DNA of 64,000 bases from Candidatus Paraprochloron terpiosi LD05. GTDB lineage: Bacteria; Cyanobacteriota; Cyanobacteriia; Cyanobacteriales; Prochloraceae. Every line of letters starts with the position of its first letter. The stretch's first letter is position 1. The stretch covers positions 558,001 to 622,000 of the forward strand of contig CP073341.1 of NCBI GenBank assembly GCA_018141785.1, in the 5' to 3' direction. The notes beneath the pieces were generated by a model. That model was not told where the DNA came from and made no database searches. It worked only from the letters and a program-made list of their open reading frames with translations. Of the stretch, positions 26,976 to 41,044 are shown in pieces. The translations under genes and the position numbers were made by a program.

Positions 26976-27254
26976 ATGGCTCACAAGAAAGGAACAGGCA
27001 GTACTCGCAACGGTCGGGATTCCAATTCTAAGCGACTGGGAGTGAAACGCTATGGCTCTGAAGTGGTGAGGGCCGGGAATATCTTAGTCCGTCAGCGAGG
27101 GACTAAATTCCACCCTGGGAAAAATGTGGGTCGCGGTGGGGACGATACCTTATTCGCCTTGATTGACGGGGTGGTCAAGTTCGAGTATAAAAATAAAAGC
27201 CGCCAGAAAGTGAGCGTTTATCCCGTTTCTGAAACCACCAGTACAGCAGCTTGA
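26976..27254 (+). CDS. rpmA: 50S ribosomal protein L27
   Basis: A 92-residue L27: [20 protein letters not shown], then [20 protein letters not shown] and [17 protein letters not shown]. The N-terminus reaches toward the peptidyl-transferase centre. GAGGAGG eight bases before the ATG. Second gene of the rplU-rpmA pair. Confidence 0.97.
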
Positions 27255-31879: not shown

Positions 31880-32390
31880 TCAATAAGGAGGAAATAAACG
31901 ACGGAAGCCGTGAAAAAGAACTACTACTAAGAAAAGAAGATTGCCAGCAATGATAGCATGAACTGGCAAGGATAAAGCAGATTTGACCACACCATTAATC
32001 TTTGACCCAAAGCTTCTATCCAGTTTACACTTCTGGGACATGGCCACAAATCCTTTAACCACTGCTGGGGAATGCCAGTTTTGCCTACTGCGGCCCCCAT
32101 AATACCCCCAAGAATAGCAGCGATGGTGTCTGTATCTTCTCCCAGTTGAATAATAGCGGCGATCCGGGGTGAAACACCGGATCCGCGCGTAGCGCGGGTC
32201 GCCCCCGTCTCTTCTCTCATAGCACTGTCGCAAGCTTGGCGAATTAATGCTAATAGTTCCCCTGCTGCTGTTGGTAGGAATGAGACGAGAGTTTGATAAT
32301 ATGTTCCTGGGGAAACTAATTGCTGGGTGCTAGCGAGATAGGCAGCGATGGCGCCGATGATAGATTCGGTTTGAGGTATATTATAGAGAG
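31880..32390 (-). pseudogene. ADP-ribosylglycohydrolase fragment (C-terminal part)
   Basis: The readable part includes IIGAIAAYLAST, a stretch with LIRQACDSAMREE, and QLGEDTDTIAAILGGIMGAA, the metal-binding C-terminal motif of DraG-type ADP-ribosylglycohydrolases, then IPQQWLKDLW. The N-terminal half is absent and the C-terminus shifts frame near 31985 into a hydrophobic ending. A GC-rich CGCGTAGCGCGG palindrome is inserted near 32185. Not functional as it stands. Confidence 0.7.
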
Positions 32391-32404
32391 TGCAAACAAC
32401 AAAC

Positions 32405-32719
32405 CTATTCTTTGGGTTCGTAGTGGGGGCAATTTTCGCAAGGACCACAGGGGTTGACTGCACAGCGGATATAAGGGGAATGAGCATTATAACGACAGCT
32501 AGTATCACCGACGCAGTAGCTACGCATTTCTTGCATTTCTTCTTCGGACTCCTGGAAATAATTCTGATTCGGGGGGGGTGTTGACTGGCGTCCCTGACTA
32601 TCTGTAGTATGTAAGTGACCCCCCCGATACCTAGACTGTAATTGTTGCCATGTTTTTTGGAGGGACAACTGCAATGATTGGATCCAATGGAGGATTAATT
32701 TGAATAGTTTCTTGAACAC
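32405..32719 (-). CDS. DUF6464-like cysteine-rich small protein
   Basis: A 104-residue frame ending in CVGDTSCRYNAHSPYIRCAV, NPCGPCENCPHYEP: six or more cysteines as in the cyanobacterial DUF6464 family, probably binding a metal or cluster. The N-terminal 30 residues are amphipathic. A second short frame from ATG at 32738 (MATSWERVQETIQINPP) overlaps the N-terminal part and stops at 32631, so the true N-terminus is uncertain and the gene may be frameshifted. Confidence 0.55.
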   Translation of the reverse strand: MFKKLFKLILHWIQSLQLSLQKTWQQLQSRYRGGHLHTTDSQGRQSTPPPNQNYFQESEEEMQEMRSYCVGDTSCRYNAHSPYIRCAVNPCGPCENCPHYEPKE

Positions 32720-33093: not shown

Positions 33094-33768
33094 TTGACTG
33101 AACCAATTCAGACCATCTTAGTGCCTCAAGGTGCAGAATATCAAGCCGTTATTCGAGCACTCAGCCAGACTCATGGTGTCAAACCAGTAGTATTACCTAT
33201 TCCAGTAGGGATGAAGGCTGTTACTAATTATTTAGAAAAATGGCACAAGACAAAGGAAGTAGTCCCACAGAGAGCTATAGTAATGGGGTTATGCGGCAGT
33301 TTATCTTCTCAATATACCATTGGGGACATCGTGGTTTACCGAGATTGCGTTTACGGTGAATTCAATTACTCTCCAGACCCGTTTCTGACTAATTTAGTCT
33401 CTGATAAACTGAAAGCAAGAGTTAGGGAAGTTAGAGCATTGACCAGCGATCGCCTCATTTGGTCTAGTACAGAAAAAGTCAGGCTGGATAATATCTACAA
33501 TTGTTCCGTTGTGGATATGGAAGGATATGCTGTATTAGAAGCACTGGGTAAAACAGGAGTCTCTGTAGCCATGATACGAGTAATTAGCGATAACTGCTAT
33601 GGAAATATTCCCGATCTTAACTCAGTAATTAGTACCTCAGGCCAACTTGAAACACTACCCTTAGTTTACGCTATGGTGCGACAACCTGTAGCTGCCGTTA
33701 GACTAATCAGAGGCGCTCTAAAAGGATTAAAAGTCTTAGAAGAAGTCACTATTGACCTCTTTTCCTAG
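33094..33768 (+). CDS. HpnG-like nucleoside phosphorylase
   Basis: A 224-residue member of the nucleoside phosphorylase/MTAN fold: GLCGSL at 65-70, GDIVVYRD near 78, and the substrate-binding VVDMEGYAVLEA with Glu143. Hopanoid-associated HpnG enzymes, which remove adenine from adenosylhopane, have this form, and hpnH is in the window. An MTA/SAH nucleosidase role is the alternative. No ATG is near the N-terminus; TTG at 33094 is used. Confidence 0.72.
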   Translation: MTEPIQTILVPQGAEYQAVIRALSQTHGVKPVVLPIPVGMKAVTNYLEKWHKTKEVVPQRAIVMGLCGSLSSQYTIGDIVVYRDCVYGEFNYSPDPFLTNLVSDKLKARVREVRALTSDRLIWSSTEKVRLDNIYNCSVVDMEGYAVLEALGKTGVSVAMIRVISDNCYGNIPDLNSVISTSGQLETLPLVYAMVRQPVAAVRLIRGALKGLKVLEEVTIDLFS

Positions 33769-33830: not shown

Positions 33831-34530
33831 TCATTTAACCTGATTTGATATTAGTTGTTTGATTTTAAATTTCAGCTTTTTGGGTACAGAAGTAAAAATG
33901 TCTATTTTTTCATCAAGATTAAATTTAATCCTCAATTTTGTCCAAACATCTTCTTCTATCCGTTCAAATTCATATCCTAGATATTCCAGCTTTTTTCGTC
34001 ATCATAATATGCACTATAGTGTCTTGTAGATTTTGAATCATTAATTTTTTGTAGTTTAGTTTTCCTGATATTGAAAATTCTACAAACTTCAGGAAAATCA
34101 TTGTCTAAATTCTCAAACCTTCCTATATAATCACAATTCGCATTCGTTTTTCTAGGAACTCCAAAAAAACTATTGGGATGATAATCTAGAATAAATTGGG
34201 TTTGCTTGATTGAATGATATCTATCAAATTTACTTAAAATATTTTTTTAATTTTTAAGCATACGCATAAATGTTAACTTTTTTATTTTTAAGGGATTTGC
34301 CATCTTTCACTATGTTCCCACATAGATGCAAATTTATCAAATGGATTTCTCACAAATGTAAAGGTGAAATAATGAAAATATAAATTAATTATAGCAAGCG
34401 CCACATGGGTTAGGACGCCAAGCTGATGCGCCATCCGCGCATGTCGTGCGCCTTCCCTCAAAAATCCTGTCCTAACAATAATGGCGACTGCTATACTTGA
34501 TCGGGTCCACTTTTTCGCATTGTGTACTCT
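33831..34530 (-). pseudogene. Sulfotransferase pseudogene interrupted by a MITE
   Basis: Pieces in reverse-strand order: HNAKKWTRS at 34496-34529, a MITE at 34390-34495, then FTFTFVRNPFDKFASMWEHS, then DYIGRFENLDNDFPEVCRIF and KINDSKSTRHYSAYYDDE. After a shift at a run of six T's (33991-33996) comes KKLEYLGYEFERIEEDVWTK, ending in TGA at 33831. FVRNP and YIGRFENL are typical of the Sulfotransfer_2 family. The N-terminal PAPS-binding part is missing. Confidence 0.75.
34390..34495. mobile_element. MITE with 27-bp terminal inverted repeats
   Basis: A 106-bp element. The left end TATAGCAAGCGCCACATGGG continues TTAGGAC; the right end read in reverse is TATAGCAGTCGCCATTATTG then TTAGGAC. About 21 of 27 bases match. 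It has no coding capacity and lies inside the sulfotransferase remnant. Confidence 0.75.
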
Positions 34531-34636
34531 ATAGCGTTTCTCAAATTGGTGAGGTACATAAGGGGTGGTAAAACATATCCCAAAACCCTTATATAGCAGG
34601 GTTTTAACCCACCCGACTACCCTGGGAAGCGCTATA
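34530..34636. mobile_element. TATAGCG MITE, copy A (inverted relative to copy B)
   Basis: A 107-bp element starting TATAGCGTTTC and ending GAAGCGCTATA. Its interior is a near-exact reverse complement of the element at 37618-37745 over about 88 bases (shared TGCTATATAAGGGTTTTGGG). It lies 65 bases before the saccharopine-dehydrogenase-like gene. Confidence 0.8.
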
Positions 34637-34701
34637 TGTCCCAATGATTTTTAACTCACTTACCATCTTATCACAAGCAAAAAATCTAAAGAGAAACAAC
34701 C

Positions 34702-35838
34702 ATGTATAACGTCACCATCTTGGGAATTGGAAAAATCGGGTCGGCGATCGCTAAACTACTACATCGCAGCGGTGATTACACAGTAATGGTTGGCGATATG
34801 GACGCTCAAGCCTTGGAACGCCTAAGCGCATCAATACCAATCAAGACTTTCGTCATAGATGTCACTGATGAAGCAGCGATAGCGGAAAAACTACAGGGTC
34901 AGGACTGCGTCGTCTCTGCCTGTCCCTATAAAGTCAATGCAGGTATCGCCAGTGCAGCTCTAAAAGCTGGAGTCAGCTATTTCGACCTGACCGAAGACAT
35001 CGCAACCACCTCCGCTGTTCGCTCCATTGCTCAAATGGCACCTAAGGGTTTAGTCTTCGCTCCCCAATGCGGTCTAGCTCCCGGCTTTATTAGCATTCTC
35101 GCTCATCATCTTTGTCGCCGTTTTGACAAGCTGGACGAGGTTAAAATGCGCGTCGGTGCTTTGCCGCAATATCCTTCTAATATGATGATGTACAATCTCA
35201 CTTGGTCTACTAAAGGTTTGATTAACGAATACTGCAATCCTTGTGAGGCAATTCACAATGGCGGTAAAATTGAGGCAATCCCCTTAGAAGAAGTGGAGCA
35301 TTTCTCCCTAGATGGAGTAAATTACGAAGCATTTAATACTTCTGGTGGCTTGGGAACACTGTGCGAAACTCTCAAAGGTCAGGTGCGTACCCTAAACTAC
35401 AAGACCGTGCGCTATCCAGGACATCACTATCTCATGGCATTTTTAATCAAAGAATTGTGCCTGAGCAATCGCCGCGATCTGCTTAAAGAAATTTTTGAAA
35501 GTTCCATTCCCACCGCGCAACAAGACGTGGTAGTTATCTTTTGCACCGTTACTGGCTGGAGAAACGGACATTTAGAACAAATTAGTGATGCTCGCAAGAT
35601 TTATCCTCTCAATTGGGATGGAGAAACCTGGAGTTCTATCCAAATCACAACTTCTGCCTCCCTTTGTGCTGTCTTAGACATGTATCTCAAGGGAAAAATT
35701 GCCCACAGTGGTTTCCTAAAACAAGAGCAAATCAATCTAGATACTTTCCTCGCCAATCGTTTTGGTCGTTACTATCTTGAGAAAAGTGAGTTGATAAACA
35801 CAAAAGAAAAAACTGCAATTCCTTTCTCTAAATCCTAA
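34702..35838 (+). CDS. Saccharopine dehydrogenase-family oxidoreductase
   Basis: A 378-residue protein with an N-terminal Rossmann fold (VTILGIGKIGSAIAKLL, GxGxxG at 8-13) and SACPYKVNAGIASAALKAGV. FDLTEDIATT and APQCGLAPGFISILAHHL follow; this is the lysine-dehydrogenase/carboxynorspermidine-synthase branch. It probably acts on an amino acid or imine with NAD(P). It heads a three-gene run with a methyltransferase and a hydrolase between two inverted MITEs, which suggests a small pathway. Confidence 0.85.
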   Translation: MYNVTILGIGKIGSAIAKLLHRSGDYTVMVGDMDAQALERLSASIPIKTFVIDVTDEAAIAEKLQGQDCVVSACPYKVNAGIASAALKAGVSYFDLTEDIATTSAVRSIAQMAPKGLVFAPQCGLAPGFISILAHHLCRRFDKLDEVKMRVGALPQYPSNMMMYNLTWSTKGLINEYCNPCEAIHNGGKIEAIPLEEVEHFSLDGVNYEAFNTSGGLGTLCETLKGQVRTLNYKTVRYPGHHYLMAFLIKELCLSNRRDLLKEIFESSIPTAQQDVVVIFCTVTGWRNGHLEQISDARKIYPLNWDGETWSSIQITTSASLCAVLDMYLKGKIAHSGFLKQEQINLDTFLANRFGRYYLEKSELINTKEKTAIPFSKS

Positions 35839-35923
35839 TCCTTTAAGTTTTAGAAAAGTAAAAATTTTCAACAATATGTCCAATTTTCTCTATAATAAAT
35901 ATTCCACTACTGAGGAGAGAAAA

Positions 35924-36535
35924 ATGTCTGAGATCCAACCAAAAAAGTGGTTAGAGTGGATCTGTTCAAGTCAAAATTTTGATGCGTTACGTGAGAACTA
36001 CGATCGATGGGCAGATACGTATGAAGCAGATGTTGGGGGAGTTTGGGAGCCAGTCCCTTTGGCGGCAGCAGTCATGCTCGCAGAGTATATGGGCAACAAA
36101 CAGGGCGCGATCCTTGATATTGGGGCTGGAACAGGTCTTGTTGGGATTGCATTGGCTGCCTTGGGATTTGAACGCACGATCGGTATTGACATATCCCCTA
36201 GTATGTTAACCCAAGCGGCGGCTAAAGGCGTATATAGTTCCTTGGTTTGCTGCTCCATAGGAGATGAAACATTCAGAAACTTAGGTAGGGCCAGTGGCAT
36301 CATCGCCACAGGAGTATTTGCGGAAAGCCATGCTGGGTCAGCAGAATTGAACGCACTTCAAGAAAAAATTGAGCCTAATGGTATCCTCGTATTCACAGCA
36401 CGCCAAAGTTTCTTGCCTAAACTTCAAGAAGTCCTGAACCAACCAGGATGGACTCTTATAGATTCTAAGGTGATGCGGATTTATGAGGACCCCACACATC
36501 TTCTCGCCTGCAAAATCCATAATACAACCAAATAA
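35924..36535 (+). CDS. Class I SAM-dependent methyltransferase
   Basis: About 203 residues. The SAM-binding motif ILDIGAGTGLVG is at about 63-74 and motif II GIDISPSMLTQAA follows, with an N-terminal NYDRWADTYEADV helix as in the WBSCR27-like group. GAGGAG before the ATG at 35924 makes it the better start than 35876. The second gene of the cluster. The methyl acceptor is unknown. Confidence 0.88.
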   Translation: MSEIQPKKWLEWICSSQNFDALRENYDRWADTYEADVGGVWEPVPLAAAVMLAEYMGNKQGAILDIGAGTGLVGIALAALGFERTIGIDISPSMLTQAAAKGVYSSLVCCSIGDETFRNLGRASGIIATGVFAESHAGSAELNALQEKIEPNGILVFTARQSFLPKLQEVLNQPGWTLIDSKVMRIYEDPTHLLACKIHNTTK

Positions 36536-36560
36536 TAAAGCAAAACAAATTGTGTCAAAT

Positions 36561-37577
36561 ATGAGTTCAGAATTGAAAAAACTAGAACAAGTTAACCAAG
36601 AACTGGAGAAGGTTCCCAATCTAAGTCGCTATGAATTGCTTGAGATGAAAGTAATTCAAGAAAGCCAAGATTTGGTTCATCGAGTCGGTGCAACAAGCGA
36701 ACCAAAACAAAGGCTTCCATTCACGAAGTTATATCTACCGATGGCCTTCACAGGCATTTTGGAGCCAAACAAGCTCGTAAATGAGACTCATCGTGCGATT
36801 CAGATCTTATTACCTGGCACGGGAACCACCTTTTCTGTTGCTGAGACACTATGTGATATTGCAGGAACTTTTCATGGCCGAAAAAGCAAGAACCGTGGAC
36901 GCGGGCGAAAAAGCAGCCAAAGTTTGCTGACCCAATTACTACCCGATGGCGAGATATTCCGTGTAGCTTCTTTTCCCACCGATCTCCCGCTCAACGGCAT
37001 GGGAGCGGATGCCACCTTTGAGTTTGCCAGCGAACAGGGTCTTATGGCAGTGATTCGCCACGTCCATCTTGTATTATCACGACTCTATCCCCATCGCCCA
37101 GTTTTTATTACTGGACGCAGCCAAGGAGGTGTAGCCGCCATACTGTACGCACAGCATTATGACGATCTAGCTGGGGCAATTGCAGTCAATCCGCCCCATC
37201 CCGATCCAGAACTATTTCAGTTTACCGTTCAATACTTGGAGAATAAAGCTGAAATTTTGGCCGATCTGCTCCATGCTCCTGGTGTTACTTTACACGATCG
37301 TAGCTGGCAAGCTTATAAGACCTTCACACCTTTTTTTGACTATCCATCTAAGCTGTCCCTGTCTCCAATTCTAATTTTGGTTAGCTTGGGCGATCCCTTC
37401 AACTTATTTCCCCAGTATGCTCATGCACTCAAGAGATTTGCAGAAAATGACAAAAAATGTCAGTTGCATATACTTGATGCGGGGCACAATCTTTGGGATA
37501 GGAAATCGGCAGATACTTATCGAGAAGTAATTCATTTGCAGACCCAATTCATGTTAAATCATCTGAAATGCAATTGA
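36561..37577 (+). CDS. Alpha/beta hydrolase-like protein
   Basis: About 338 residues. The nucleophile elbow is GRSQGG (185-190, Ser187), the likely acid lies in VSLGDPFNLFP and the base in DAGHNLWD, so a triad can be drawn. LLPGTGTTFS near 84 may form the oxyanion hole. A strongly basic insert (residues 106-119) is unusual. I start at the ATG at 36561, 25 bases after the methyltransferase stop; the frame opens earlier but would overlap. Third gene of the cluster. Confidence 0.75.
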   Translation: MSSELKKLEQVNQELEKVPNLSRYELLEMKVIQESQDLVHRVGATSEPKQRLPFTKLYLPMAFTGILEPNKLVNETHRAIQILLPGTGTTFSVAETLCDIAGTFHGRKSKNRGRGRKSSQSLLTQLLPDGEIFRVASFPTDLPLNGMGADATFEFASEQGLMAVIRHVHLVLSRLYPHRPVFITGRSQGGVAAILYAQHYDDLAGAIAVNPPHPDPELFQFTVQYLENKAEILADLLHAPGVTLHDRSWQAYKTFTPFFDYPSKLSLSPILILVSLGDPFNLFPQYAHALKRFAENDKKCQLHILDAGHNLWDRKSADTYREVIHLQTQFMLNHLKCN

Positions 37578-37617
37578 ATATATACATGGTTGTTTGGTTC
37601 ATATTCATATTCATATA

Positions 37618-37745
37618 TATAGCGTTTCGCGGGGGAGTCGGGAGTCGGGAGTCGGGAGTCGGGTGGGTTAAAACCCTGCTATATAAGGGTTTTGGGATAT
37701 GTTTGACCACCCCTTCTGTACCTCACCAATTTGAGAAACGCTATA
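37618..37745. mobile_element. TATAGCG MITE, copy B
   Basis: A 128-bp element starting TATAGCGTTTC and ending GAAACGCTATA: perfect 11-bp terminal inverted repeats except one position. It carries a tandem array of four GGGAGTC units (37633-37660) that copy A lacks. With copy A it brackets the three-gene cluster in inverted orientation. Confidence 0.8.
37633..37660. repeat. GGGAGTC tandem heptamer, four copies
   Basis: Four perfect 7-bp units in a row inside MITE copy B. Such heptamer arrays are common in filamentous cyanobacteria. Confidence 0.85.
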
Positions 37746-37913: not shown

Positions 37914-39083
37914 CTATTTGCCATAAACCCGTCCTTTCCAAGCACCTCCTTTTCCTTGCCAATGACGCAAAGCAGAGTCTAGAGTCATGAGAGTATAGAG
38001 GAAGGCAATCCCTGGTAAGGAAAAACTCCACAAAGGCGATCTACCATATAACTTAAGGGTAGGCACAAAAGCCACAGCCATCAACAACCAACCAAAAATA
38101 CCAGCACCTACCACCAACTTCCAATGGAATAGGATACCTAAAACCAAAGCCACCGGGGGAACGAGATATGTGATTATCATGGCGATCGTGGTGCCAATTA
38201 AAAGTAGAGGAGAATAATTAAGCTGGGTAAAAGCCGTGCGAGCTACCATATCCCAGATGGTATCCAGAGAGGGATAAGAGCGCAAACTGCGAGTCATCTC
38301 AGTGAGTCCCAACCAAATTGAGCCATCCGGTTTGCTAGACTTAACAGCTTGTGCTAAAGCACAATCGTCAATTAAAGCATCTCGTACCACCTCAATACCC
38401 CCAATACCCTCATAAGCTTGGCGGCGAATTAAAATACATCCTCCAGCAGCCGCAGCAGTTTGTCTCGAAGGATCATTCACCCAGCTAAAAGGATAAAGCT
38501 TTTGAAAGAAAAAGACAAAAGCGGGGATGAGCAGCTTTTCCCAAAAATTTTCGCACCGCAGCAATACCATTAAAGAAACTAAATCTAAATTTTCCTCTTC
38601 CCCTTTGAGAACTAATTCCCTAATATTAGTATCGTGATGCTGAATATCCGCATCGGTAAATAAAAAGTAATCTGGGTTGTATTGCTTTCCATGACGAATA
38701 CCTTCAGCTAGAGCATGAAGTTTTCCTGTCCAACCGGAAGGTAAAGGTTTGGTGGTAATAACTTCTAGCAATTTATCTCTCTTGGTATGAGCAGCAACTT
38801 CTCTGGCTATATTTGCTGTACCATCTTTACTACCATCATCTACTAAAATGACCCTCATGGAACCGGGATAGTCTTGAGTCAGAAGGGATGGTAATGTAGT
38901 AGGAATTAAATCCGCTTCATTACGAGCGGGTATCACTACACAAACTGACGGCCACTTCTCCAGTTTAGTTGTTTTTATCATCAAGCGCTGGTTAGAGAGC
39001 CAAAACCCACCTCGCAGAGTGAGCAAACCGAGCCAAATTAAGCAAGAGATAACCGTTAAGGAAAAATAAACTGTCTCGTTCAT
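37914..39083 (-). CDS. hpnB: Hopene-associated glycosyltransferase HpnB
   Basis: A 389-residue family 2 glycosyltransferase anchored by an N-terminal and several C-terminal hydrophobic segments. GT2 motifs: VVIPARNEADLIPTTLPSLL, VDDGSKDGT, FTDADIQH and the DCALAQAVK region. The order and length match HpnB proteins of hopanoid clusters. It is divergent from shc with only 50 bases between the starts, which fits shared regulation. The exact sugar product is not established. Confidence 0.9.
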   Translation of the reverse strand: MNETVYFSLTVISCLIWLGLLTLRGGFWLSNQRLMIKTTKLEKWPSVCVVIPARNEADLIPTTLPSLLTQDYPGSMRVILVDDGSKDGTANIAREVAAHTKRDKLLEVITTKPLPSGWTGKLHALAEGIRHGKQYNPDYFLFTDADIQHHDTNIRELVLKGEEENLDLVSLMVLLRCENFWEKLLIPAFVFFFQKLYPFSWVNDPSRQTAAAAGGCILIRRQAYEGIGGIEVVRDALIDDCALAQAVKSSKPDGSIWLGLTEMTRSLRSYPSLDTIWDMVARTAFTQLNYSPLLLIGTTIAMIITYLVPPVALVLGILFHWKLVVGAGIFGWLLMAVAFVPTLKLYGRSPLWSFSLPGIAFLYTLMTLDSALRHWQGKGGAWKGRVYGK

Positions 39084-39133
39084 TTTGATTGAGAATAAGT
39101 TATAGTGCAGTACCCAAGAGTAAAAGAACCAAA

Positions 39134-41044
39134 ATGCAACTACAAGATAGATTAACGATTACGGAAGTGAAACAGGCGATCGCCCAATCTCAAAACTATC
39201 TCCTCAGGCAACAATATGAGGATGGCTACTGGTGGGCGGAACTAGAATCCAATGTTACCATTACCGCAGAAGTTGTGCTCCTTCATAAGATTTGGGGAAC
39301 AGACACCACCCGCCCCCTAGAGAAAGTAGAAACCTACCTGCGGCGAGAACAAAGAGAACATGGCGGTTGGGAACTATATTACGGTGATGGGGGGGATTTA
39401 AGTACCTCTGTGGAAGCTTATATGGCTCTTAGGTTGCTGGGAGTACCCCCCACAGATAACGACTTAATCAGGGCGCGTAACTTTATTCTTAAAAGGGGTG
39501 GCATTAGCAAAACCAGAATATTTACCAAGTTCCATTTAGCCCTAATTGGTTGCTATAACTGGCAGGGCATTCCTTCCATTCCGAGCTCAATCATGTTACT
39601 CCCCGAGTGGTTCCCTTTTACCATCTACGAAATGTCCAGTTGGGCGAGATCCAGTACCGTCCCCCTGCTCATTGTCTTTGATAAAAAGCCAGTGTTCCCC
39701 ATCAATTCCACCATTACTTTAGAGGAACTATATGCAGAAGGAATCAATAACGTTCGCTACGAATTGCCCAGCAATGGGGATTGGACAGATATCTTCAATT
39801 GGCTAGATCATGGCTTTAAACTAGCAGAAAACCTCAATTTAGACCCCTTTCGGGAAGCAGGATTGAAAGCAGCAGAAAGATGGGTTTTGCAACGACAGGA
39901 AACCACAGGAGACTGGGGAGGGATTATTCCAGCCATGCTCAATTCCCTCCTAGCACTCCGCACTCTAGACTACAATGTGGCAGATCCAGCTGTAGTGCGG
40001 GGACTGAAAGCAGTAGATAATTTTGCCATCGTTACCACCGATAGCTATCGCATTCAACCCTGCATCTCCCCAGTGTGGGATACAGCTTGGGTATTGCGCA
40101 GTCTGGTAGAGTCCGGTATGGCACCAGATAGTCCAGAGTTGGTGCGGGGAGGAGAATGGTTGTTAAAACAGCAAATCCTTGAATATGGGGATTGGGCGGT
40201 AAAGAATAAAGAAGGAAGACCCGGGGGCTGGGCTTTTGAGTTTGCCAATGGCTTCTATCCCGATTTAGACGATTCTGCTGTAGTAGTAATGGCTCTGGAT
40301 AAATTAAAACTACCAGATGAAGAAGCAAAAAAGGGTGCCATCGCCCGTTGCGTTGATTGGATGGCTACCATGCAATGCCGATTAGGAGGTTGGGGAGCCT
40401 TTGACAAGGATAATAACCAAGACTGGCTCAACCAGTTGCCCTATGGAGACTTGAAAGCCATGATCGACCCCAATACCGCCGACGTAACAGCCCGGGTGCT
40501 GGAAATGCTGGGGCAGTGCGGTTTAGAGATGGAACCGGAAAGAGTGTCCAGGGCCATCGCCTATTTAACCAGAGAACAAGAGGCAGACGGCAGTTGGTTG
40601 GGTCGCTGGGGAGTCAATTATATCTATGGTACCAGTGGCGTCTTGTCAGCCCTAGCTTTAGTAGCTCCCCAGACTCATAAGGATATCATTGCACGGGGCG
40701 GGGCTTGGTTAGTAGACTGTCAAAACCAGGATGGAGGTTGGGGAGAAACCTGCCGCAGCTATAACGATCCTACCCTCAAAGGACAGGGAGTCAGTACCCC
40801 TTCCCAAACTGCTTGGGCTTTAATTGGCTTAATAGCGTCAGGAGCAGCAACAGGGAAATGGGAAAAGAAAGCCATTGAAGGTGGAATTAATTATCTTATA
40901 ACAACTCAAAGAGAGGATGGTAGTTGGAACGAATCTGAATTTACAGGAACTGGATTTCCCGGTCATTTTTATCTCAAATACCACTTATATCAGCAATATT
41001 TTCCTTTAATTGCCTTAGCTGGCGCTCAAGAATTGATTTTGTGA
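39134..41044 (+). CDS. shc: Squalene-hopene cyclase
   Basis: About 636 residues. The protonating acid motif of hopene cyclases, DLDD (normally DxDD), is at about residue 377, and QW repeats are frequent (for example QDGGWGETCRSY, QREDGSWNE). It cyclises squalene to hopene at the membrane. I use the ATG at 39134; a TTG at 39089 opens the frame but lies only five bases from hpnB. Full length. Confidence 0.96.
   Translation: MQLQDRLTITEVKQAIAQSQNYLLRQQYEDGYWWAELESNVTITAEVVLLHKIWGTDTTRPLEKVETYLRREQREHGGWELYYGDGGDLSTSVEAYMALRLLGVPPTDNDLIRARNFILKRGGISKTRIFTKFHLALIGCYNWQGIPSIPSSIMLLPEWFPFTIYEMSSWARSSTVPLLIVFDKKPVFPINSTITLEELYAEGINNVRYELPSNGDWTDIFNWLDHGFKLAENLNLDPFREAGLKAAERWVLQRQETTGDWGGIIPAMLNSLLALRTLDYNVADPAVVRGLKAVDNFAIVTTDSYRIQPCISPVWDTAWVLRSLVESGMAPDSPELVRGGEWLLKQQILEYGDWAVKNKEGRPGGWAFEFANGFYPDLDDSAVVVMALDKLKLPDEEAKKGAIARCVDWMATMQCRLGGWGAFDKDNNQDWLNQLPYGDLKAMIDPNTADVTARVLEMLGQCGLEMEPERVSRAIAYLTREQEADGSWLGRWGVNYIYGTSGVLSALALVAPQTHKDIIARGGAWLVDCQNQDGGWGETCRSYNDPTLKGQGVSTPSQTAWALIGLIASGAATGKWEKKAIEGGINYLITTQREDGSWNESEFTGTGFPGHFYLKYHLYQQYFPLIALAGAQELIL

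Follow-up and report, generated by a model that had tools for sequence, protein, structure and literature searches.

Two copies of one MITE stand in opposite orientation on either side of a three-gene run in the chromosome of Candidatus Paraprochloron terpiosi LD05 (contig CP073341.1), within a stretch of 64,000 nucleotides (positions 558,001 to 622,000 of the contig) that was analysed as a whole and is referred to here as the window. The locus raises the question of how the genes and the repeats came to be together: the pair may have carried the genes to this site, may allow them to be flipped, or may have formed around genes that had arrived by another route. The description in the original prediction of a near-identical inverted pair around a three-gene run was borne out, with arms at 34530-34621 and 37654-37745 that are 97% complementary over 92 nt at a spacing of 3032 nt and with all ORFs of the run lying inside. 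The bracket and its contents are as follows.

34530 to 34636 (+): left MITE, 107 bp, TA-bounded, with a 29-bp TIR facing outward (34530-34558) and an imperfect 11-bp end facing inward (34626-34636)
34702 to 35838 (+): SDH, a saccharopine-dehydrogenase-like oxidoreductase (PF03435 and PF16653) of 378 aa
35876 to 36535 (+): MT, a class I SAM-dependent methyltransferase of 219 aa, whose start may be at 35925 by comparison with homologues
36561 to 37577 (+): ABH, an alpha/beta hydrolase of 338 aa, with the start placed from homologues; a longer ORF begins at 36483
37618 to 37745 (-): right MITE, 128 bp, inverted, with a 29-bp TIR facing outward (37717-37745) and an 11-bp end facing inward (37618-37628)

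The enclosure is tight, with 66 nt between the left MITE and the start of SDH and 41 nt between the stop codon of ABH and the right MITE. The 29-bp TIR, TATAGCGTTTCTCAAATTGGTGAGGTACA, is identical in the two copies and complete at both outward ends (34530 and 37745), whereas the inner ends are reduced to 11 bp; in the right MITE, the inward end is followed by GGGAGTC tandem repeats. Aligned end to end, the two elements differ by six substitutions in 107 columns and by 21 bp in the number of GGGAGTC repeats. As a single strand, the left MITE folds better than 200 shuffled sequences (z -4.2). The terminal motif TATAGCGTTTC is found in the window at 34530(+), 37618(+), and 37735(-) as exact matches and, with one mismatch, at 34626(-), which reads GAAGCGCTATA on the plus strand, and at 27044(-); the five matches compare with 0.78 expected, and none of 100 shuffles reached five.

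Elsewhere in the genome, close copies are not seen. When the 107-bp left MITE was used as the query in a sequence search, only these two places matched in the 3.84-Mb genome; the 92-bp match occurs nowhere else, and three of the four exact genome-wide occurrences of the TIR are at the bracket. For a lone second copy inserted at random, the probability of falling within 3.1 kb of the first would be approximately 0.0016, an arithmetic value that ignores insertion preferences. We infer that the two insertions were not independent. The competing view is that a once commoner MITE inserted here twice in unrelated events while its other copies were lost or decayed, so that the bracket is a coincidence. 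In favour of this view, diverged relatives of the MITE persist in this genome at 843517, 1729202, and 3434612, and other genomes have related MITEs as scattered single elements. However, the 97% match of the two bracket copies over 92 nt contrasts with a far greater divergence of all other copies, and this, together with the low probability of such close spacing, makes coincidence improbable. The GCGGGGGAGTCGGGAGTC end is found at further sites in this genome and in a sister genome, and the MITE therefore looks like a native of the genus and not like an import. As a separate observation, elements with a TATAGYG...CGCGGGGGAGTCGGGAGTCGGG end and GGGAGTC tandem repeats were seen at G000:C1:1729202-1729240 and 3434612-3434651 and in L129 and L130, and the copies at 3434612 and in L130 apparently occupy the same site in both genomes.

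The origin of the repeats could be traced through their ends. Each bracket element is short and has a TIR at both ends, one of them imperfect, with no transposase gene, as is typical of a MITE. The MITE end was matched in 21 of the 100 relatives searched, and in many of these 21 genomes it forms elements of approximately 70-150 bp with two full TIRs, that is, dispersed MITEs. Inverted TIR pairs approximately 990-1005 bp apart surround IS630/DDE_3 genes in L004, L008, and L022, and the same TIR spacing is present in L010; on examination, the first three all had a DDE_3 domain (PF13358) between the ends, and the gene in L022 also matched the NCBIfam model transpos_IS630 with 108 bits against a cut-off of 100. 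Because these elements of approximately 1.02 kb from other cyanobacteria enclose IS630/DDE_3 genes between the same 29-bp TIRs, the bracket elements are MITEs of the IS630 (Tc1/mariner) family, and the repeats themselves thus belong to an already known kind of element. They resemble IS630/Tc1-mariner insertion sequences and cyanobacterial MITEs (e.g. ISY100, PMC2170065) in their TA-bounded ends and TIRs of 24-29 bp. Unlike ISY100-type elements, the copies here are 107 and 128 bp long, each has one full and one 11-bp end, and no cognate transposase was found for them.

A search for that cognate IS630 transposase gave no match in this genome or in two genomes of the same genus (G001 and G002), although an empty search is not proof of absence. 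The sole intact DDE_3 ORF of this genome (C1:2728447-2728839) has different terminal repeats. Given this negative search, the MITE pair is most likely immobile at present. In plasmid collections neither ABH nor the MITE was matched, only parental IS630 relatives, which were on cyanobacterial plasmids, and viral contigs gave no match to the TIR.

The site in which the bracket lies belongs to a hopanoid locus, the relevant features of which are listed here.

33094 to 33768 (+): PNP_UDP_1 phosphorylase, HpnG-like (62 bits, below the HpnG curated cut-off of 187), the left neighbour
34288 to 34362 (-): sulfotransferase gene remnant (FTFVRNPFDKFASMWEHS; Pfam PF03567, E 6e-4, below the cut-off)
34390 to 34495 (no strand): second palindromic element, unrelated to the MITE and TA-bounded, TATAGCAAGCGCCA...TGGCGACTGCTATA, 34 bp left of the left MITE (fold z -3.5)
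37914 to 39083 (-): hpnB, hopene-associated glycosyltransferase (TIGR03469, 569.8 bits, cut-off 379), the right neighbour
39089 to 41044 (+): shc, squalene-hopene cyclase (TIGR01507, 929 bits)

In one relative (G004), the phosphorylase gene and hpnB converge and share a few bases, so the 4.1 kb between them here, which includes the operon, is an insertion relative to that genome. The two genes are also convergent in five other relatives, in which gaps of approximately 0.8 to 3.9 kb hold other genes. The left 760 bp of the 4.1-kb insert is AT-rich (32% GC), and because this part contains the sulfotransferase remnant and, beside or within it, the second palindromic element, the insert does not form a single clean unit. 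Rfam models matched only one tRNA in the window, away from this locus. A genome of the same genus that is 98% complete (G001) was considered as a possible empty site and rejected, since hpnB is not strongly matched there (best E 6.7e-9) and ABH gave no hit; this suggests that it has lost at least part of the hopanoid locus.

We then asked where the enclosed genes came from. SDH is 72-81% identical at the amino acid level to most of the cyanobacterial relatives listed. The three genes are also adjacent in Okeania, Symploca, Hormoscilla, Leptolyngbya PCC 7375, Adonisia, a Prochloraceae bin, and a Spirulina bin, in the order MT-ABH-SDH in Okeania and Symploca and SDH-MT-ABH in most other genomes, and a search of 389 genomes of the order found ABH in 14, spread over six families. 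Synonymous divergence (pS) between the cluster and its counterparts in Okeania, Symploca, Hormoscilla, Leptolyngbya, and Prochloraceae is 0.38-0.66, with the exception of MT against the Prochloraceae bin (0.77). In contrast, genes of the window outside the operon that have clear orthologues in Okeania, Trichodesmium, and Prochloraceae genomes show pS of 0.72-0.95, and one of them has a pS of 0.87 despite 80% amino acid identity. Native genes are saturated at synonymous sites against the Okeania and Prochloraceae genomes, whereas the operon is still short of saturation against Okeania, Symploca, and Hormoscilla. Because the operon and the native genes differ so strongly in synonymous divergence at equal protein identity, the operon was probably acquired horizontally from another cyanobacterium. 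In the two non-cyanobacterial bacterial relatives examined, an aldehyde dehydrogenase gene follows the SDH homologue, an arrangement that corresponds to saccharopine-type lysine breakdown; the cyanobacterial partner genes differ. In Trichodesmium erythraeum GBRTRLIN201 (L087:4785-7078), the operon looks decayed, with a frameshift in SDH and only a fragment of MT.

The operon relatives that we checked (L032-L040 and L087) have no MITE bracket around the operon. In Hormoscilla (L040), one MITE of the same family lies 3.7 kb beyond ABH, past another gene.

A sister genome, that of Ca. Paraprochloron terpiosi (L031, the same as G002:C37), was compared at this locus. The operon, its orientation, and hpnB and shc are collinear in the two genomes at 94-98% identity; from this shared place and orientation, the operon is judged to predate the split of the two genomes and to have stayed in place since. 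At the orthologous site (L031:3339-3395), the right MITE of the sister is 57 bp long and lacks 71 bp of interior. As this interior is common to both copies here, the full-length form is likely ancestral and the sister form shortened. On the left, the end of an IS200/IS605 TnpB element abuts 18 bp beyond the position at which the left MITE ends here; this element (L031:1-371), identified by its TnpB C-terminal (TNB) domain, is directly upstream of the operon, and the contig starts inside it. The sister contig that carries the phosphorylase ends 79 bp past the phosphorylase stop codon, in unrelated sequence. With the left side hidden by the insertion sequence and the contig ends, the sister gives no reading on the age of the left MITE. 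The original prediction had held that a relative with the cluster in place and the repeats missing would speak against it; the sister is not such a case, as it keeps the shortened right copy and its left side is covered. The divergence between the two copies (3/92 or 6/107) is about equal to that between the species (3-4% at third positions; 11/168 in the right flank), and the order of events therefore cannot be read from it. The two MITE copies may thus date back to the split of the species and could have come with the operon.

Three further observations were made in this comparison. The IS200/IS605 element in the sister is a second, independent mobile element at the same spot. The 5' half of MT (window 35850-36200 against L031) accounts for about half of all differences between the two operons, with up to 20 differences per 100 bp as against 0-6 in the rest of the operon, as if it had been replaced by recombination with a diverged donor. 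Near the locus, the homologue of window 31927-32508(-) in the sister (L132:1331-2364) is split by approximately 450 bp and is sharply divergent after residue 54.

The same collinearity bears on the idea that the bracket is an invertible segment, in which recombination between the 92-nt inverted copies would flip the operon and so switch its expression. Near-identical inverted repeats of 92 nt at a distance of 3 kb are in principle a possible substrate for homologous recombination, which counts for this idea. However, the two genomes present one orientation only: the operon of the sister runs in the same direction next to the same gene. A scan for promoters and terminators stayed at background level, and no promoter-like site rose above it near the left copy. 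The suggestion that the cluster may invert is thus not supported; a switch is ruled out by collinearity for the two genomes compared, and we regard it as extremely improbable altogether.

Alternatively, the right MITE could have been retained between ABH and hpnB, which are convergent, as a transcription terminator or a spacer. Its strong folding and a terminator-like stem at 37668-37695 speak for such a role. Against this, terminator-like matches are at background frequency (4 against 3.4 expected), and the sister has no such stem, which was removed by the 71-bp deletion. Such a role is distinctly improbable.

The remaining alternative is that the pair itself brought the operon to this site. 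In that case, a trans-acting IS630 transposase would have paired the two outward ends, and the resulting unit of 3,216 bp would have been inserted at a TA between the hpnG-like gene and hpnB. Several features speak for it: the outward ends are intact and identical over 29 bp while the inner ends have only 11 bp, the cargo is laterally acquired and leaves just 66 and 41 nt to spare inside the bracket, and the only two genomic copies are both at the bracket. ISY100, an IS630-family element of Synechocystis, targets TA and moves by cut-and-paste, and 30 bp from each of its ends is sufficient (PMC2170065). Composites bounded by Tn3-derived miniature elements, termed TIME-COMPs (PMC4133298, PMC13367494), have been shown to move in Pseudomonas (PMC4133298), experimental precedent that counts in its favour. 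As in these, two miniature copies, which may be direct or inverted, surround a cargo without a transposase, and the bracket with its outward ends of putative competence has a TIME-COMP-like composite anatomy, that of a putative unit. It differs from TIME-COMPs in being of IS630 rather than Tn3 type, in enclosing a chromosomal metabolic operon, and in that a 2-bp TA leaves no diagnostic duplication. A second parallel is found in Acinetobacter, where class 1 integrons lie between 439-bp MITE copies and movement of the unit was inferred from 5-bp target repeats (PMC3934969); there too laterally acquired genes are enclosed by two copies of one MITE, but target repeats of this kind are not readable here.

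Several results weigh against such an import. No second copy of the unit was seen in the genome and no empty site in the relatives compared. The related operons checked have no bracket, further occurrences of the GCGGGGGAGTCGGGAGTC end in this genome and the sister give the MITE a native look, and both full ends would face outward by chance in one case out of four. The target-site duplications proposed as a check are not diagnostic: TA stands at every end of the MITE family, and the consensus end itself begins with TATA, so TA carries no information on whether the unit moved. Of the composite mobile unit put forward in the original prediction, the layout and the lateral cargo therefore hold up, whereas its movement finds no support in a second copy, a near-relative empty site, or a cognate transposase. 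We consider this import unlikely, though well short of negligible.

The account that we favour, at about even confidence, is that of a laterally acquired operon in a hopanoid locus, flanked by sibling IS630-family MITEs of which the left arose by local re-insertion, with no switch in the two genomes compared. The SDH-MT-ABH operon would have been inserted between the hpnG-like gene and hpnB in the common ancestor with the sister. The right MITE copy, being present in the sister, would be the older one, and the left would have followed later. Most likely, the left copy came from a short-range re-insertion of the same MITE at a TA upstream of the operon, presumably while a cognate transposase was still available. 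Since the intact 29-bp ends face outward, the outcome would be a potential composite unit of 3,216 bp, immobile here without its cognate transposase. Between local duplication of the MITE and import of the composite, we lean slightly toward the former, because the MITE looks native and the related operons that were checked have no bracket.

Most descriptions of composites bounded by MITEs concern plasmids and the surroundings of resistance genes. If the composite reading were true, the locus would be a chromosomal counterpart of TIME-COMPs, and a symbiosis-associated cyanobacterium would have received a metabolic operon in its hopanoid locus through the MITE pair. As a chromosomal case with a lateral metabolic operon and an identified parental IS630 family, it offers a concrete, testable unit of 3.2 kb. 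If only local duplication of the MITE took place, the event would be ordinary, and the locus would still record the movement of a patchily distributed SDH-MT-ABH operon between cyanobacteria that are marine or associated with hosts.
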